A DNA stretch of 5,350 bases from Ignavibacteriota bacterium (GTDB lineage Bacteria; Bacteroidota; UBA10030; UBA6906): assembly GCA_003161755.1 (NCBI GenBank), contig PMNP01000142.1, forward strand, positions 10,503 to 15,852, in the 5' to 3' direction. Position numbers and translations under genes: made by a program. The notes below the pieces were generated by a model. The model was not told the origin of the DNA and did not search any database. It saw nothing but the letters and a program-made list of their open reading frames with translations. Positions 1-5,350 of the stretch are shown here, piece by piece (the stretch's first letter is position 1; each line of letters starts with the position of its first letter).

Positions 1-1031
1 GGCACGGCCGTTTCCGTGCCACCGACACCGCTGACCGAAATTTCTGGAGGCAAGATACCGAGGAACGCAATGGTCTGTGCCAACCCGCTGCCACCTTGTC
101 CACCATGGGAAACGCCGCCGTGAAGTGTGACGGGCGAGATCGCTGTACTGGCTCCCGGTATTGCCTTGACATAGAATGAAGTGTCAGCATCCCCAATGTT
201 CTGGATCACCATGTGAACGATGGAGGCAGTGTCCACCTGGAACGTAAACGTATACTCTCCCAACACATTGGTGGTGAATGTTCTCGCGGTTTGTGCATTC
301 GGTGAAATTACCGTTGAAGTCACCAGAGCACCAGCGACCGGATTCCCCGTCAACCCGTCCTGCACCACTCCTCCCAGTGTTGCAAAGAGTGCGGCTTTGG
401 AAGCCAGGCGAGCAAGGACGTTTGTGATCTGACCGAACGTTGCCAATACCGTTATCGTCGTGTCATTGAAGCGTCCCCGCGTATCATGCATGATGAGGTC
501 TACCGAAAATGGGGCGTTTCCCACCGTGCTATCGACGGGAATGTTCACCGTGAAACGGCCGGTCGTGTCGCTCACAACCACTTGCTGGCTCATAGAGGAT
601 CCCGAAGCCGTAATCGTGATACCCGGAATCGCCACATCGCCCAACAATGGATTCTTGAGCGCCCCTCGAATGCTCGCCGGACCGTAGGGGATTTTGGAAA
701 TCATATAAACGCTGATCGTTGTGGTCCTCAACACCACCAGGCTAGCTACCACGAGGGTGTCCCGATAGCCTTGTTTGCTAAACGTAAGAGTTGCTGAACC
801 GAGGCTATCAACCTTGAACTTCAGATAGAACGATCCGTCATTCGCGGTAGTGGTAGTCTGATTGTTTTCTCCTGTCACTGTCACGCCGGCAATCGGCACT
901 CCGAGAAATGCGTCGGTGACAACGCCGGATACCGTACTGTAACCCGGTTCAGGAGCAGTGGCGTCGTTTGTGCACGTCACAAACAGCACCGCCATCAGTG
1001 CAAAAACTGGAAGAAGTCTCAGGGTTCTCAT
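1..1031 (-). CDS. Probable lipoprotein with three carboxypeptidase-regulatory-like repeats (3' end beyond window)
   Basis: This frame is open from the ATG at 1031 to the window edge (343 codons, no stop), so the C-terminus is missing. Residues 1-19 form a short positively charged, hydrophobic signal sequence (MRTLRLLPVFALMAVLFVT) followed by Cys20 and a polar, Pro-containing stretch. This suggests lipidation at Cys20, although the lipobox (F-V-T-C) is not canonical. Three beta-rich repeats follow (about residues 33-110, 119-209 and 217-306). Each opens with a 'G-V-V-x-D...G-x-P-(I/V)-A-G' type motif and has a central 'DG-S-F / TG-R-F / LG-E-Y' turn, as in CarboxypepD_reg-like/transthyretin-like folds. 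A Gly-rich linker (307-316) leads to 'PPEISVSGVGGTETAVP', which resembles the entry strand of a bacterial Ig-like (Big_1-type) domain. The gene lies 45 nt after the secretin gene with no terminator between them, so it is probably co-transcribed. Exact function is unknown; a surface adhesin or an accessory outer-membrane protein of the pilus is possible. Confidence 0.82.
   Translation of the reverse strand, partial: MRTLRLLPVFALMAVLFVTCTNDATAPEPGYSTVSGVVTDAFLGVPIAGVTVTGENNQTTTTANDGSFYLKFKVDSLGSATLTFSKQGYRDTLVVASLVVLRTTTISVYMISKIPYGPASIRGALKNPLLGDVAIPGITITASGSSMSQQVVVSDTTGRFTVNIPVDSTVGNAPFSVDLIMHDTRGRFNDTTITVLATFGQITNVLARLASKAALFATLGGVVQDGLTGNPVAGALVTSTVISPNAQTARTFTTNVLGEYTFTFQVDTASIVHMVIQNIGDADTSFYVKAIPGASTAISPVTLHGGVSHGGQGGSGLAQTIAFLGILPPEISVSGVGGTETAV
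114..935 (-). repeat. Three tandem CarboxypepD_reg-like protein repeats
   Basis: These are three diverged, in-frame repeats of about 78-91 residues within the lipoprotein gene, at roughly 702-935, 405-677 and 114-383. Aligned opening motifs are GVVTDAFLGVPIAGVTVT, GALKNPLLGDVAIPGITIT and GVVQDGLTGNPVAGALVT. Aligned central motifs are DGSFYLKFKVDS, TGRFTVNIPVDS and LGEYTFTFQVDT. The similarity is clear in protein but weak in DNA, so the duplications are old rather than recent tandem copies. Confidence 0.75.
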
Positions 1032-1076: not shown

Positions 1077-2300
1077 TTACTTTATGTGGCGGTCCATACG
1101 GTCCTGTTCCTGACGCCAGCGGTTCAGAATTCCGTCTTCTTTTCTCTTTTCTGTGATGCGTTCCTGCAATGTAGGAACGAGATCTGCTTTCAGAAGAATT
1201 ATGAGCTCTTTCTTGTCAAACTCTTCCCGATTGTACCCAAAGAGGTACCGGAGACCCAAGACATACCACGGAAGGTCCTTCAGAACGGGGACGCCGGTGC
1301 GAACAGTGTTCGTCTGGGTGGAATACAATCCGCCGATGATGCTCTCTTCTCCATCCAAGAGCAGGAGATTGGTATTGGCTTTTGTCCGATTGACAATAGT
1401 GGTAAGTGTTCCAGGTTGGACATCACTACGTTCGACTTCCACATTCAAATGAATAAAACTAACCCCTTGTTCGGTGAGCACTTGGGGCGTCACGTTGATA
1501 ATCGTGCCTGCGCTATAGAATTTATCTATCAAATTGCCTGCAAAGTCGCGTTCACGGACAGAGAAGTCTTGCCCAACCTGAATGCGCCCGGTCTCGCCGG
1601 AGCGGACAATGATTTCCGGACCCGAGACCAACTCGCCGAGTTGAAGGTTGGAGAACATCTTCGCGAGAACATCGATATTCGCAAAACTGATCTTCGGGCT
1701 AAACCCGACGTTAAAAATATCCGCTTTATTTTGATCTGCCCCGGCGAAGGTGGAAGCCAGCGTGAAATCCTTCGTGCTCTTCATGAAATCCCAGTTGATA
1801 CCCACTTCTTCAATGCGGGTAAGATCTGCTTCGAGAAGATACGCGCTAATCTTCACTTCGCGGCTCTTGATGGATGCAACCTCTTTTTGAATTCTGGCGG
1901 CTGGTGCTGCACCTGCGGGGCCGGCGGCTTGTTTGGTAGATTCGCTGGCAGGGGAGGTGATCTGAATATATGAATCGAATTCAGTGTACCAGAGGTCGTT
2001 CTTTCTGCAGATTGTCTCAAGAGCGTCCTTCCAATGCATGCCCTGGATATCAATGTTGATGGGCGTGGTGCGCCGCTCGGTGTCAATCACGAGTTTTCCT
2101 GTAAATTTCTTGCTCACTTCGCTAATGATCGTAATCGCCTTGTCAAGCGGTGTGGTCGGAGCGATGGAGACAAGTTCTTGCGGGGAGGTATGCTCGCGAA
2201 AGGCCCGGCGTTCAGAAGAACTCGACCCCTGCGCATGCAAAGGAACGACCGCCACACACAAGAGAATGATCGCAGCTGCCATGATACGTGTCGTGTTCAT
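1077..2300 (-). CDS. pilQ: Short PilQ/GspD-type outer-membrane secretin (407 aa)
   Basis: This protein would form the outer-membrane ring through which the pilus passes. A Sec signal peptide is visible (residues 1-23, hydrophobic core AAAIILLCVAVV, likely cleavage after LHA). Residues about 46-115 look like one secretin/STN N domain (FTGKLVIDTERRTTPINIDI...WKDALETI). An Ala/Pro/Gly-rich linker spans about 116-136. The secretin domain runs from about 150 to 378 with typical signatures: VSGPEIIVRSGETGRIQVG, GTIINVTPQVL, LLLLDGEESIIGGLYS, VPVLKDLPW and KKELIILLKADLV. A charged tail of about 34 residues closes the protein. PilQ proteins are usually much longer, with AMIN and several N domains; those are absent here. 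An in-frame ATG at 2345 would put 15 polar residues before the signal peptide and overlap the upstream gene, so the ATG at 2300, one base after the upstream stop, was chosen. The assignment as PilQ rather than another secretin rests on the neighbouring genes. Confidence 0.9.
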   Translation of the reverse strand: MNTTRIMAAAIILLCVAVVPLHAQGSSSSERRAFREHTSPQELVSIAPTTPLDKAITIISEVSKKFTGKLVIDTERRTTPINIDIQGMHWKDALETICRKNDLWYTEFDSYIQITSPASESTKQAAGPAGAAPAARIQKEVASIKSREVKISAYLLEADLTRIEEVGINWDFMKSTKDFTLASTFAGADQNKADIFNVGFSPKISFANIDVLAKMFSNLQLGELVSGPEIIVRSGETGRIQVGQDFSVRERDFAGNLIDKFYSAGTIINVTPQVLTEQGVSFIHLNVEVERSDVQPGTLTTIVNRTKANTNLLLLDGEESIIGGLYSTQTNTVRTGVPVLKDLPWYVLGLRYLFGYNREEFDKKELIILLKADLVPTLQERITEKRKEDGILNRWRQEQDRMDRHIK

Positions 2301-2301
2301 G

Positions 2302-3210
2302 CTAGTCCCATTCCTCTTTGTTAGGTTCGTTTTGCCCAGTTCCATAACGGATTGTGAGTTCGACCCGATCGATAATGCCTCCCTTGTTCAGCGTGCATTC
2401 CAGTCGGCCGTTCTGAGGATCGATCTTTGTCACGTATCCAAGATACACTTCGTCGCCTTCCTGCAACGTGCGGATGGCTTTGCTCTGATCCTCCACGAAT
2501 ACTTTCCCTGGAATGACCGCCTTCAACGAAGAGCGTTCTATTTCCACCAGACCCCGGACGTTGGGTGGAATTCCGCTTGAGATAACCGGGATGAACGGAT
2601 CGGAGGTGATGCTGGTTGGAGATATGATCCGATCGATGAGCGCGCCGGAAAGTTCTGCAACGGAAGAATAGTAGGATTGGACCTCCATGGAGAACGTCAC
2701 GAGCACTCCGCCCAGCTTCTTGTCGGTGGTCGCCACTTCGATTCCATGCAGGGTAAGGGTGGTGATCTTATACAAGCGGCGATCGTTCTCCATGTACCAG
2801 ATGAACCGATACAGGTTGGCGAATGGAGCTTCCCCCTTCAGGCTGTAAATATGATAGCCGTAGTTACTCTTGTCCACTCCCCCTTCGTACGCCACGTCGA
2901 GCTTGATGGGACCGCTCAGATCGATGAGATGGCTGAAGTATGCATAACTTTGCGCGGTCACATCGGCGGGCGGAATGATTTTGTTCCTCGTCTCCCAGCG
3001 CTTTTGTGTATCATTGAGCGTAGTGCTGAGATCGTTGAACTGATTTACGAGGTTAGGGGTATTTTGCAGTTCTTCATCGATCTTCTTCATCGATGCCTGA
3101 ATTGCCTTCACCTTCTTCGGTTGGTTAATTACCCGCCAGTAACCTCCCCCGATGAGGATCAAGAACATCAGGATCCCCAAGACGATGCTATTACGGAGCT
3201 TGTAGGACAC
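2302..3210 (-). CDS. pilOP: PilO-PilP-like fusion protein, type IV pilus alignment complex
   Basis: This is an inner-membrane protein with a short cytoplasmic N-terminus, one transmembrane helix (about residues 8-25, IVLGILMFLILIGGGYW) and a periplasmic remainder. A heptad-like charged helix (about 32-75) and a ferredoxin-like region (about 88-182, with ANLYRFIWYMENDRRLYKI and a final VTFSMEVQSYY strand) match PilO. A linker then leads to DPF (204-206) and a beta-rich segment to about residue 290, with VRGLVEIERSSLKAVIPGKV, LQEGDEVYLGYVTKID and a KGG..DRVELTIRYG ending. This resembles the PilP/GspC homology-region fold that contacts the secretin. PilO alone is usually about 200 residues, so 302 fits O plus P, and no separate pilP lies between this gene and the secretin gene. 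The start is GTG at 3210, supported by AAGGAG 7 nt upstream. The PilO half is fairly secure; the PilP half is inferred from motif layout and position. Confidence 0.8.
   Translation of the reverse strand: MSYKLRNSIVLGILMFLILIGGGYWRVINQPKKVKAIQASMKKIDEELQNTPNLVNQFNDLSTTLNDTQKRWETRNKIIPPADVTAQSYAYFSHLIDLSGPIKLDVAYEGGVDKSNYGYHIYSLKGEAPFANLYRFIWYMENDRRLYKITTLTLHGIEVATTDKKLGGVLVTFSMEVQSYYSSVAELSGALIDRIISPTSITSDPFIPVISSGIPPNVRGLVEIERSSLKAVIPGKVFVEDQSKAIRTLQEGDEVYLGYVTKIDPQNGRLECTLNKGGIIDRVELTIRYGTGQNEPNKEEWD
2311..2319 (-). promoter_or_regulatory. Shine-Dalgarno site of the secretin gene
   Basis: The minus strand reads AAAGAGGAA inside the last codons of the upstream gene, with its GAGG 12 nt before the ATG at 2300. 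It favours this ATG over the in-frame ATG at 2345. The stop at 2302-2304 and this start are one base apart, so translational coupling with the PilO-PilP-like gene is likely. Confidence 0.6.
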
Positions 3211-3234: not shown

Positions 3235-4809
3235 TCAACGGACCGCTTCTGTTGCGGGAATGTCAAGCGAGTATTTATATACTTCCTGGTCACGGATGGA
3301 CTGAACGGTGACCTCTTTGAGAACTGCATTGTCGAATATTGCCGAAAATCTCGGAATCCGGGTGCGATAGGTGGTGTACCCGATCAGATTCAATGTTGAG
3401 CTCCCTCCTTGACCCGCATTGAAATCGGTCACCCAAAGGGAATTCAGGTCCTCCACACCGTTGGTGAGTTTCGTCAGCGTGCGACTCCACCGCTGGCTGC
3501 CCGGAACGAGTGAGTCGTACAACGCAAGAGATGTCTTGTATCGGTTGATCTGCTGTTGAAGGGCGTCGATGGAATTCGCCAATTGTTGATTCTCCGCCTG
3601 CTGGCTTTCCTTTCGCGTCAATTCATCATGGAGATCACGTAGTTCTCTGGTCTTTGAGGTGATCTGCCAAGTGAAGAAAAACGCGGAAATGAACAGGAGC
3701 ACAATCAGGACGTAGCCGTGCCACGCGAGCTTGAAAACGCGCTGACTTTCACGGATGGAATCGGGCAGAAGGTTGACCCGGTACATTGACTGACTCTTTT
3801 GGTCCAGGATGCGCCAAGCCGCGCCGATCGGGACTGCGAAAGCGGAAATTTCGGCTTGCTGCTCCGGCGGCAACGGACTGGTGTCCAACATGGGCACCAG
3901 GAGATAGTCGACTTCCTGATCGGGCAGTTGCTGCACGAGGAATTCCTTGAAGTCGATCCTGTGGCTTTCCCCCGCAAGGACGATTCGATGGATGCGCGGA
4001 AGCCCGAGATTGTCCTGTTCGAGGAGAAGTCTGCTATAGACCGTATTCTGCAGGTTCGGGGAGTCATACCCTTCGCCGAGAATCGGGGCGAATTGATAGA
4101 AGTGATCTCCCCGCATAAAGATAAGCCGCGTGAACTCGACACCGACATAGATGATGACGGTCACCTCATTGGCCTGGAGTTCGTAATTCTGGCGAACCAG
4201 GTTCATGAGCGAGACGTCGGAACTGTCTATGCCAGCAATCAGCGGAAGTCGGCCACCAAGGTAGCTCTTGATGCCTTCCAGTGAGTGGACAAGGCTCAGC
4301 CCATCTTCCCTCACGATGCAGAGAAGTCCACCCTCCTCGGTGTGGATGTGGTCCACGGCATCCATCATTGGCTGGAAAGCGCGGATGTTTCTCAGCTCTT
4401 CGAGAATCCGCTGTCGCAGCTTCACCCCTTTCAGTCCGTAGTCAGTCTCGAGCACGTGATAATAGATTGCCGGTTCAGCCAGACTGTACACCAGCGAGTA
4501 TTTCGTGCTCGGGTAGGCGGCGAGGAGCCTTAGGAGAATGGAACTGTTGTCGTCCGATTGGACATCGGCAGTGGCGGATTCCATGACCGAACCACCCGAC
4601 GAGACGGCAAAGGGGTCCGAGCCCCCGTCGGCGCCAGGAAGACCGATATCAACGCTCTTGTGCTCTGCCATCTTTGAGGCAAGCGTGGCCGTGCGCAATT
4701 CCTGTACAATCACACGCCTGCCTTTGACCGCAAGATGTGCAAGCTTCAAATCGAGCCCGTCCACAAACAGGCCGATGACGTTTTTGCTGCGTCCACTCAT
4801 TTCGGACAT
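3235..4809 (-). CDS. pilMN: PilM-PilN fusion (GspL-like), type IV pilus assembly protein
   Basis: This is a 524-residue bitopic protein joining two normally separate pilus proteins. Residues about 10-340 form a PilM-like, actin-fold cytoplasmic domain: a first beta-hairpin (VIGLFVDGLDLKLAHLAVKG), a 1C-like region (about 103-145), a second phosphate-motif region (VTVIIYVGVEFTRLIFMRGD, about 216-235) and RIVLAGESHRIDFKEFL (about 275-291). A polar Gly/Ser/Asp-rich insert occupies about 48-90. Residue 343 onward is PilN-like: YRVNLLP (the motif by which free PilN binds PilM), a transmembrane helix at about 363-381, a Gln-rich coiled coil at about 383-440 and a periplasmic ferredoxin-like domain to the end (WSRTLTKLTNGVEDLNSLWV, STLNLIGYT, RIPRFSAIFDNAVLKEV). 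The start is the ATG at 4809, behind AGAGGTGAGG; a GTG at 4836 in the same frame is less likely. It would link the cytoplasmic motor to the periplasmic PilO-PilP-like protein encoded 24 nt downstream. Confidence 0.85.
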   Translation of the reverse strand: MSEMSGRSKNVIGLFVDGLDLKLAHLAVKGRRVIVQELRTATLASKMAEHKSVDIGLPGADGGSDPFAVSSGGSVMESATADVQSDDNSSILLRLLAAYPSTKYSLVYSLAEPAIYYHVLETDYGLKGVKLRQRILEELRNIRAFQPMMDAVDHIHTEEGGLLCIVREDGLSLVHSLEGIKSYLGGRLPLIAGIDSSDVSLMNLVRQNYELQANEVTVIIYVGVEFTRLIFMRGDHFYQFAPILGEGYDSPNLQNTVYSRLLLEQDNLGLPRIHRIVLAGESHRIDFKEFLVQQLPDQEVDYLLVPMLDTSPLPPEQQAEISAFAVPIGAAWRILDQKSQSMYRVNLLPDSIRESQRVFKLAWHGYVLIVLLFISAFFFTWQITSKTRELRDLHDELTRKESQQAENQQLANSIDALQQQINRYKTSLALYDSLVPGSQRWSRTLTKLTNGVEDLNSLWVTDFNAGQGGSSTLNLIGYTTYRTRIPRFSAIFDNAVLKEVTVQSIRDQEVYKYSLDIPATEAVR

Positions 4810-4824: not shown

Positions 4825-4843
4825 CGTATGCACCACCAGCGGC

Positions 4844-4860
4844 CTGATCCAGGGGATCAG
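4844..4860 (-). other. Perfect 7-bp hairpin overlapping the pilT stop codon
   Basis: CTGATCC and GGATCAG form a perfect inverted repeat with a 3-nt loop. The stop codon TGA (4857-4859) lies in the 5' arm of the transcript. No T-run follows, so it is not a standard intrinsic terminator. It could be an intercistronic mRNA processing or stability element, or chance. Confidence 0.4.
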
Positions 4861-5350
4861 TCACCAACGCTGGCGGAGAGATTCATGATTTGCTGGAAGC
4901 GACGCTTGTTATTTGCTGAAACAACGGCGTTCTCCAGGGAGATTTTTTTCTGCAGATAGAGCCTCTTCAAATCCTGCTCCAGGGTGGTCATACCGAGATC
5001 TGCACTCTCGGCCATCATCTGATATATTTCACCGGTGTTATTATTCTTGATGGCGGCGCGCACTGGAGGCGTCATCGTCAATAATTCCTTTGCCAATACC
5101 CGTTTGCCATCGAGGCTGGACACGAGCTTTTGCGACATGACACAACTCAACGTATCGGCCAGACGCAGCCGGACGCGGTCCTGCTCGATGGGCGGCATTT
5201 CACCGATAATACGGTCGATCGTCTCCACTGCCGATGCCGTATGCAGCGTTGAAAACACCTTGTGACCGCTATCGGTGATTTCCAGGGCCGTCATAATGGT
5301 GTCGGGATCACGCATTTCCCCGATGACGATGATGTCGGGGTCCTGGCGCA
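4857..5350 (-). CDS. pilT: PilT-type pilus retraction ATPase, C-terminal part (5' end beyond window)
   Basis: This is the last 163 or so residues of a hexameric secretion-family ATPase that depolymerises type IV pili at the inner membrane. The fragment opens inside the Walker B region (RQDPDIIVIGEMRD), followed by the His-box (GHKVFSTLHTASAVETIDRI) that is characteristic of the family. The C-terminal part is of the PilT/PilU kind: RLRLADTLSCVMSQKLV, GKRVLAKELL and SADLGMTTLEQDLKRLYLQK. There is no tetracysteine zinc module of the GspE/PilB kind, which would fall just after the His-box. The segment matching the PilT 'AIRNLIRE' motif reads PPVRAAIKNNNTGEIYQMM, so it is divergent. The Walker A motif and start lie outside the window. 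The ATG at 5315 is internal to the gene. PilT and PilU cannot be told apart from this fragment alone. Confidence 0.9.
   Translation of the reverse strand, partial: RQDPDIIVIGEMRDPDTIMTALEITDSGHKVFSTLHTASAVETIDRIIGEMPPIEQDRVRLRLADTLSCVMSQKLVSSLDGKRVLAKELLTMTPPVRAAIKNNNTGEIYQMMAESADLGMTTLEQDLKRLYLQKKISLENAVVSANNKRRFQQIMNLSASVGD

Follow-up and report, generated by a model that had tools for sequence, protein, structure and literature searches.

PilM and PilN in one polypeptide

The window analyzed here, 5,350 nt of contig PMNP01000142.1 (positions 10,503 to 15,852) from the Ignavibacteriota bacterium assembly GCA_003161755.1, encodes on its minus strand a protein, here termed PilMN, in which PilM and PilN are fused. 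PilM and PilN are normally separate proteins that clip together at the pilus base, where an NLLP-type peptide of PilN docks in PilM. The features of PilMN are as follows.

3235..4809, minus strand: PilM–PilN fusion (PilMN), 524 residues, ATG start at 4809 (open reading frame [ORF], alignment of relatives, AlphaFold2, profile–profile comparison)
3784..4809, minus strand: PilM-like actin-fold domain, residues 1-342, with degenerate nucleotide-site residues F15 and E281 (AlphaFold2, fold search, profile–profile)
3763..3774, minus strand: NLLP motif, residues 346-349, the PilN start peptide (sequence, model, profile–profile, alignment)
3646..3714, minus strand: transmembrane segment, approximately residues 366-388, within the long helix 350-433 (hydrophobic stretch by eye; helix from AlphaFold2)
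3256..3498, minus strand: periplasmic ferredoxin-like PilN domain, residues 438-518 (AlphaFold2, PDB sequence match, profile–profile)

The ORF contains 524 codons and no internal stop; a GTG start at 4836 is possible, and the alignment of relatives begins at the ATG at 4809. An AlphaFold2 model based on 118 sequences (pLDDT 87.0, pTM 0.69) predicts a single helix at residues 350-433 followed by an alpha-beta-beta-alpha-beta-beta topology at 438-518, which agrees with a ferredoxin-like fold of the PilN/GspL type; an earlier model from 33 close sequences was poor (pLDDT 61.9). Fold search and profile–profile comparison assign the PilM-type actin fold to the N-terminal part, an assignment that holds among the folds compared. 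When the two parts were tested separately against reference sets from which 3 of 33 rows had been dropped (duplicates and one odd frame), each half aligned almost full length to PilM and PilN, respectively. Moreover, a PDB sequence search with PilMN returned M. xanthus PilN (3jc8, E 2.4e-4) as the sole match up to E 1. The first-pass annotation had read from the sequence an actin-like PilM running into a PilN with its NLLP motif, transmembrane helix, coiled coil and ferredoxin-like domain, and the analyses support each of these elements, the transmembrane stretch by eye.

No Pfam family matched PilMN above its own cut-off, and the T2SSL domain PF05134 gave no match at E 1; across 11 genomes PF05134 matched only in G014, below cut-off and away from any PilMN gene. 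The NCBIfam model NF045709 (Amuc_1101 family, PilM-like) weakly matches residues 335-471 to model positions 347-479 of 608 (E 3.8e-10), scoring 39.2 bits against a cut-off of 650, and matches 5 of 24 distant PilMN members. Profiles of E. coli GspL and HofM did not match PilMN, but neither did PilM match HofM in the control comparison (9.9%), and the result therefore carries no weight.

The junction between the two parts is conserved. In 140 aligned rows of the PilMN family, N346 is conserved in 126, and L348 and P349 in 134 each. Using as criterion a match that runs from before position 300 to beyond 400 of the 524, the junction lies within one ORF in 83 of 87 PilMN loci, the other four being interrupted by contig ends (L080, L081 and L179) or an insertion element (L178). 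These loci comprise 28 named ones and 59 further ones and are not equivalent to genomes, some of which contribute two. A search restricted to candidates of 0.55-1.75 times the query length found 453 homologues, and the 120 listed measure 454-532 residues. The identical protein occurs on four contigs, which may include the window's own, while no relatives of PilMN were found in viral contigs. The presence of PilM and PilN in one chain is confirmed, and the fusion is a variant of an already known M–N fusion type.

Broken copies were also seen. In L178 (9505-12343), the second PilMN copy of G205 carries a transposase-like ORF inserted at 10313-11215, and in L180 (2272-4002, G049) PilMN reads as two ORFs of 108 and 459 residues, the break falling inside the PilM part, away from the junction.

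The PilM part has a degenerate nucleotide site

In reference PilM proteins the phosphate-1 Asp and the adenosine-motif GG are each present in 30 of 30 rows. At the corresponding phosphate-1 position (residue 15), PilMN carries Y in 76 and F in 47 of 140 rows, with D outside the six commonest letters, and the second Gly of the adenosine motif (residue 281) is E in 118 of 140. Given the loss of these residues, the PilM part of PilMN probably no longer binds ATP. The phosphate-2 Asp was dropped as a marker, since reference PilM is itself variable there (D in 5 of 30).

PilMN lies between PilT and a second fusion, PilOP

The other genes of the window, all on the same strand, are these.

4857..5348, minus strand: PilT-family ATPase, C-terminal part, cut by the window end (domain searches)
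2302..3210, minus strand: PilO–PilP fusion (PilOP), 302 residues, GTG start; PilO-like residues 1-215 and a PilP-like stretch at about 224-273 (profile–profile)
1077..2345, minus strand: short secretin, PilQ-type model best but under cut-off; its start may be the ATG at 2300
3..1031, minus strand: protein with carboxypeptidase-regulatory domains, cut by the window end; it follows the secretin in relatives too

PilOP was identified by profile–profile comparison with 20 PilO and 13 PilP reference rows (3 of 16 PilP rows were dropped for odd frames), which gave 97.9% for PilO and 94.0% for PilP over 48 columns. The PilO part also matches PilN (96.5%), as would follow from the fold that PilO and PilN share; the remaining cross pairs of halves scored at most 0.6%. 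This gene order is widespread. PilOP is directly downstream of PilMN in 83 of 83 loci, and PilT immediately precedes PilMN in the window as well as in 82 of the 85 loci that extend far enough upstream, the exceptions being L012, L093 and the insertion-split L178, in which PilT adjoins the PilM part. The run of genes at locus L006 adds PilC, PilB (with an MshEN match under cut-off) and small proteins with hydrophobic starts, and models made from the proteins of this run recover the same gene set around distant relatives, within the extent of the fetched regions. The type IVa pilus (T4aP) set of PilB, PilC, PilT, secretin and MNOP is therefore found in L006 and distant loci, with PilT and PilB under NCBI cut-offs. 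A second PilB-like ATPase, basal within the Bacteroidota PilB clade, was observed near the cluster in L001 (1502-3358) and L027.

The fusion is the rule in sampled relatives

A PilMN profile built from 26 members matched 127 of 395 genomes sampled from the phylum of G006, an Ignavibacteriae metagenome-assembled genome (MAG). Together with the one-ORF loci described above, this survey, which the first-pass annotation had proposed, shows that most relatives sampled at a PilMN locus have the two proteins fused. Among 27 near relatives only one (G022) had a Pfam PilN match, in a protein other than PilMN. G022 contains a separate locus (L053/L054) resembling a type II secretion system (T2SS), which encodes both a 496-residue GspL-like fusion and a prepilin peptidase; no PilT was found near this fusion in the 19 kb fetched. 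PilN frames in the phylum of G014 mostly measure about 200 residues and have PilM upstream. Seven of ten fetched loci with longer frames are M–N fusions by sequence; five of the seven have ATPase, platform and secretin genes nearby, none with PilT, and L158 and L160 are too short to tell.

G014, a MAG labelled as Acidobacteria, includes a PilMN contig (L014) although it also has ordinary PilM and PilN. L014 has probably been misbinned; the counts over 27 relatives (Pfam PilN, peptidase and N-methyl pilins) exclude it, whereas the junction count keeps it among its 28 named loci.

An orphan PilM-like gene of about 300 residues was considered as the "real" PilM and rejected, as it is not in a pil locus there. 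It lies beside rsmD and coaD in L031 (G012) and L032 (G011), the two loci whose neighborhoods were read, with no pil genes in these short loci; ORFs resembling it occur in several other genomes.

Leaderless small proteins and the prepilin peptidase

The results in this section rest on relatives, the window carrying none of the small genes. The small-protein rows, all outside the window, are as follows.

L006:41-448: MGxQQ small protein
L001:4664-5071: MGxQQ small protein
27 more alignment rows: MGxQQ small proteins

These operon-encoded proteins of about 130 residues start with MGxQQLLL, followed by a hydrophobic and then an amphipathic stretch, and have neither a leader nor Glu5. The 29-row alignment, hand-chosen among rows whose start is clean, shows no variation at M1, G2, Q4 and Q5 and has no Glu at residues 6-8. 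Of 59 matches of this type in the fetched loci, 55 start MGxQQ as read, one has the same form with a GTG start, in two the motif lies downstream of a start placed too early, and one runs off the end of the fetched region. The profile of these proteins matches 130 of the 395 genomes, including 125 of the 127 that carry PilMN. PilMN occurs without the small protein in G226 and G331, and the small protein without PilMN in G173, G221, G225, G254 and G351. Compared with six E. coli pseudopilins, the MGxQQ proteins showed no significant profile match, the best being GspG (7.9%, in register). From their layout, operon context and co-occurrence, we infer that they are pilins, the candidate subunits of a filament.

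Type IV filaments have four core proteins according to PMC10191384, and prepilin peptidase is among them. The peptidase family PF01478 had no match in 112 of the 127 PilMN genomes. It was present in 15 of 127, compared with 36 of the 268 others of the phylum sample, and is therefore no commoner with PilMN than without; among near relatives it was found in 3 of 27. A second profile, A6, comprised 11 peptidases, drawn both from near relatives and from the phylum sample after 3 of 14 peptidase loci had been set aside, and matched none of the 76 genomes tested of the 112 that lacked PF01478. As a control, A6 found four of four positives, of which G010 and G281 are rows of the profile and G245 and G257 are not. 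Six PilMN genomes in which one contig covers about 96% or more of the genome (G158, G320, G262, G036, G205 and G138) had no peptidase match, and there the absence is therefore not due to missing contigs. N-methyl pilin starts (PF07963) were found in 4 of the 27 near-relative genomes.

A model for the machine and its alternatives

We consider it probable that PilMN is a one-chain PilM and PilN acting in a type IV pilus-like machine of the Bacteroidota sensu lato, which take in the Ignavibacteria and their relatives. The PilM domain would sit beneath the inner membrane with its own NLLP peptide in the groove used by a separate PilN; such docking within the chain, raised as a possibility in the first-pass annotation, is plausible. 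The helix would cross the membrane, and the ferredoxin-like domain would pair with the PilO part of the neighboring PilOP, whose PilP part would extend to the short secretin. Because both pairs are fused, the four-protein alignment complex would be made from two proteins, with ratios fixed at 1:1. PilB would power extension and PilT retraction.

Several points weigh against this model. Docking of NLLP in cis and in trans cannot be told apart in a monomer model. At L006, PilT and PilB score below the NCBI cut-offs (315.4 vs. 319.1 and 410.8 vs. 675.65, respectively), and PilT was not found in the 406 and 513 bases upstream of PilMN in L012 and L093. The 59 further loci are a nonrandom sample, 15 being the best search matches and 44 hand-picked, some for looking split. 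Two T4aP hallmarks, prepilin peptidase and N-methyl pilins, are missing in most genomes. Finally, GspL-like fusions fit the whole PilMN chain about equally well: hhalign against seven of them gave 98.0% for the whole chain and 80.4% and 93.8% for the halves. This set retained seven of ten rows, the three in a wrong frame being left out, and includes L165 and L166, whose N-terminal frames are doubtful.

The relationship between PilMN and GspL bears on the alternatives. In a quick ATPase tree (54 rows, PilT root), Bacteroidota PilB (17 rows, support 84) lies outside the group of T4aP PilB and T2SS GspE (branch 98), with long branches meeting at the root. Constraining it with T2SS rows, among which L163 is not a confirmed fusion locus, costs 6.2 log units and is not rejected (approximately unbiased [AU] test, p 0.40, 48 rows). 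PilMN may be an intermediate or a convergent form, as suggested earlier; PilB stands outside both groups, yet the joint clade with T2SS survives, and two fusions, or one fusion and one fission, are both compatible with these data. A single ancient M–N fusion, inherited by PilMN and GspL and later split in canonical T4aP, would fit its occurrence in two lineages as well as the surviving joint clade; with PilB outside T4aP PilB and GspE in the free tree, such a shared fusion needs an extra fission, and we regard it as unlikely, though deserving real weight. That PilMN is instead the GspL of a divergent T2SS, the cluster secreting proteins and the pilin-like subunits forming a short pseudopilus, would agree with the hhalign scores, the joint clade and the shared layout, GspL being described as a PilM–PilN fusion in PMC10191384. 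The recurrent PilT and PilOP neighbors and the lack of a T2SSL Pfam match speak against an ordinary T2SS GspL, and we find this reading improbable. A frameshift or assembly error merging two genes found no support and, although broken copies do occur (L178 and L180), is negligible because the junction is intact across loci and the homologues are of full length.

Returning to the pilus-like machine, its subunits may be assembled in an unusual way. We propose, at a little short of even confidence, a phylum-wide separate branch of type IV filament machines that has no need of a prepilin peptidase and combines leaderless MGxQQLLL subunits lacking Glu5 with a motor base condensed to PilMN, whose PilM part would have no functional nucleotide site, PilOP and a short secretin. 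The subunits would be inserted as made, losing at most the Met, and then assembled and retracted by the condensed base. It is also possible that a peptidase of an undescribed type acts in the PF01478-negative genomes. In the part of the open-licence literature covered, type IV filaments without prepilin peptidase appear only for the Nanoarchaeota (PMC4471445) and for some MSH loci, which, according to PMC6668835, may borrow one. In the same coverage no report of an M–N fusion in Bacteroidota pili was found. The M–N fusion varies a known type; a type IV filament machine working without a peptidase would be new.

PilMN is a natural counterpart of the PilM–PilN chain used in crystallography and offers a single-chain handle on the coupling of the cytoplasmic ring to the periplasm. 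Beyond the first-pass annotation, the analysis adds the PilOP fusion, the loss of nucleotide-site residues in the PilM part, the M–N fusion as the rule in the sampled relatives and the lack of a detected peptidase in most PilMN genomes. Most deserving of experiment is the setting of the fusion, a condensed machine resembling a pilus, whose subunits are leaderless and whose hosts usually lack a prepilin peptidase. If it needs none, one of the four core proteins would be dispensable, peptidase processing would not be universal in the superfamily and models of subunit docking based on Glu5 would need another solution.

Comparison with known systems

As first noted from the sequence, PilMN shares with GspL/PulL/EpsL of type II secretion a single chain made of an actin-like cytoplasmic part, one transmembrane helix and a periplasmic ferredoxin-like part. 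It differs from them in its neighbors (PilT, the PilOP fusion and a short secretin), in having no T2SSL Pfam match and in fitting full-length PilM and PilN better. Rather than T2SS genes without PilT, as for GspL, the PilMN locus has PilT directly upstream, and PilMN is not the ordinary GspL of a complete T2SS operon. Since the M–N fusion exists outside GspL, fusion is not a hallmark of secretion systems.

With separate T4aP PilM and PilN, PilMN has in common the M-N-O-P-Q order, the NLL-type start peptide and the near full-length alignment of its halves. It differs in that M and N, and also O and P, are fused, and in that 123 of 140 PilMN rows have Y or F where T4aP PilM has the phosphate-1 Asp. 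The Amuc_1101 family (NF045709) matches at the equivalent place of a longer PilM-like chain, and an M–N fusion may therefore exist in Akkermansia too; PilMN remains far under the cut-off of that family, which few distant members match.

The "T2SS" of Cytophaga hutchinsonii is likewise a type IV filament machine from the Bacteroidota; it is reported to cluster with T4aP, and its PilM/N/O/P were found only by remote homology, according to PMC6668835 (Denise et al.) and PMC5553014. In the latter, the cluster has the prepilin peptidase gene chu_3197 and GspG, in the order D-E-O-G-F by gene number, and the word PilT is absent from the paper. With its own peptidase gene and a different gene order, the C. 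hutchinsonii cluster therefore looks like a different machine from that of PilMN.
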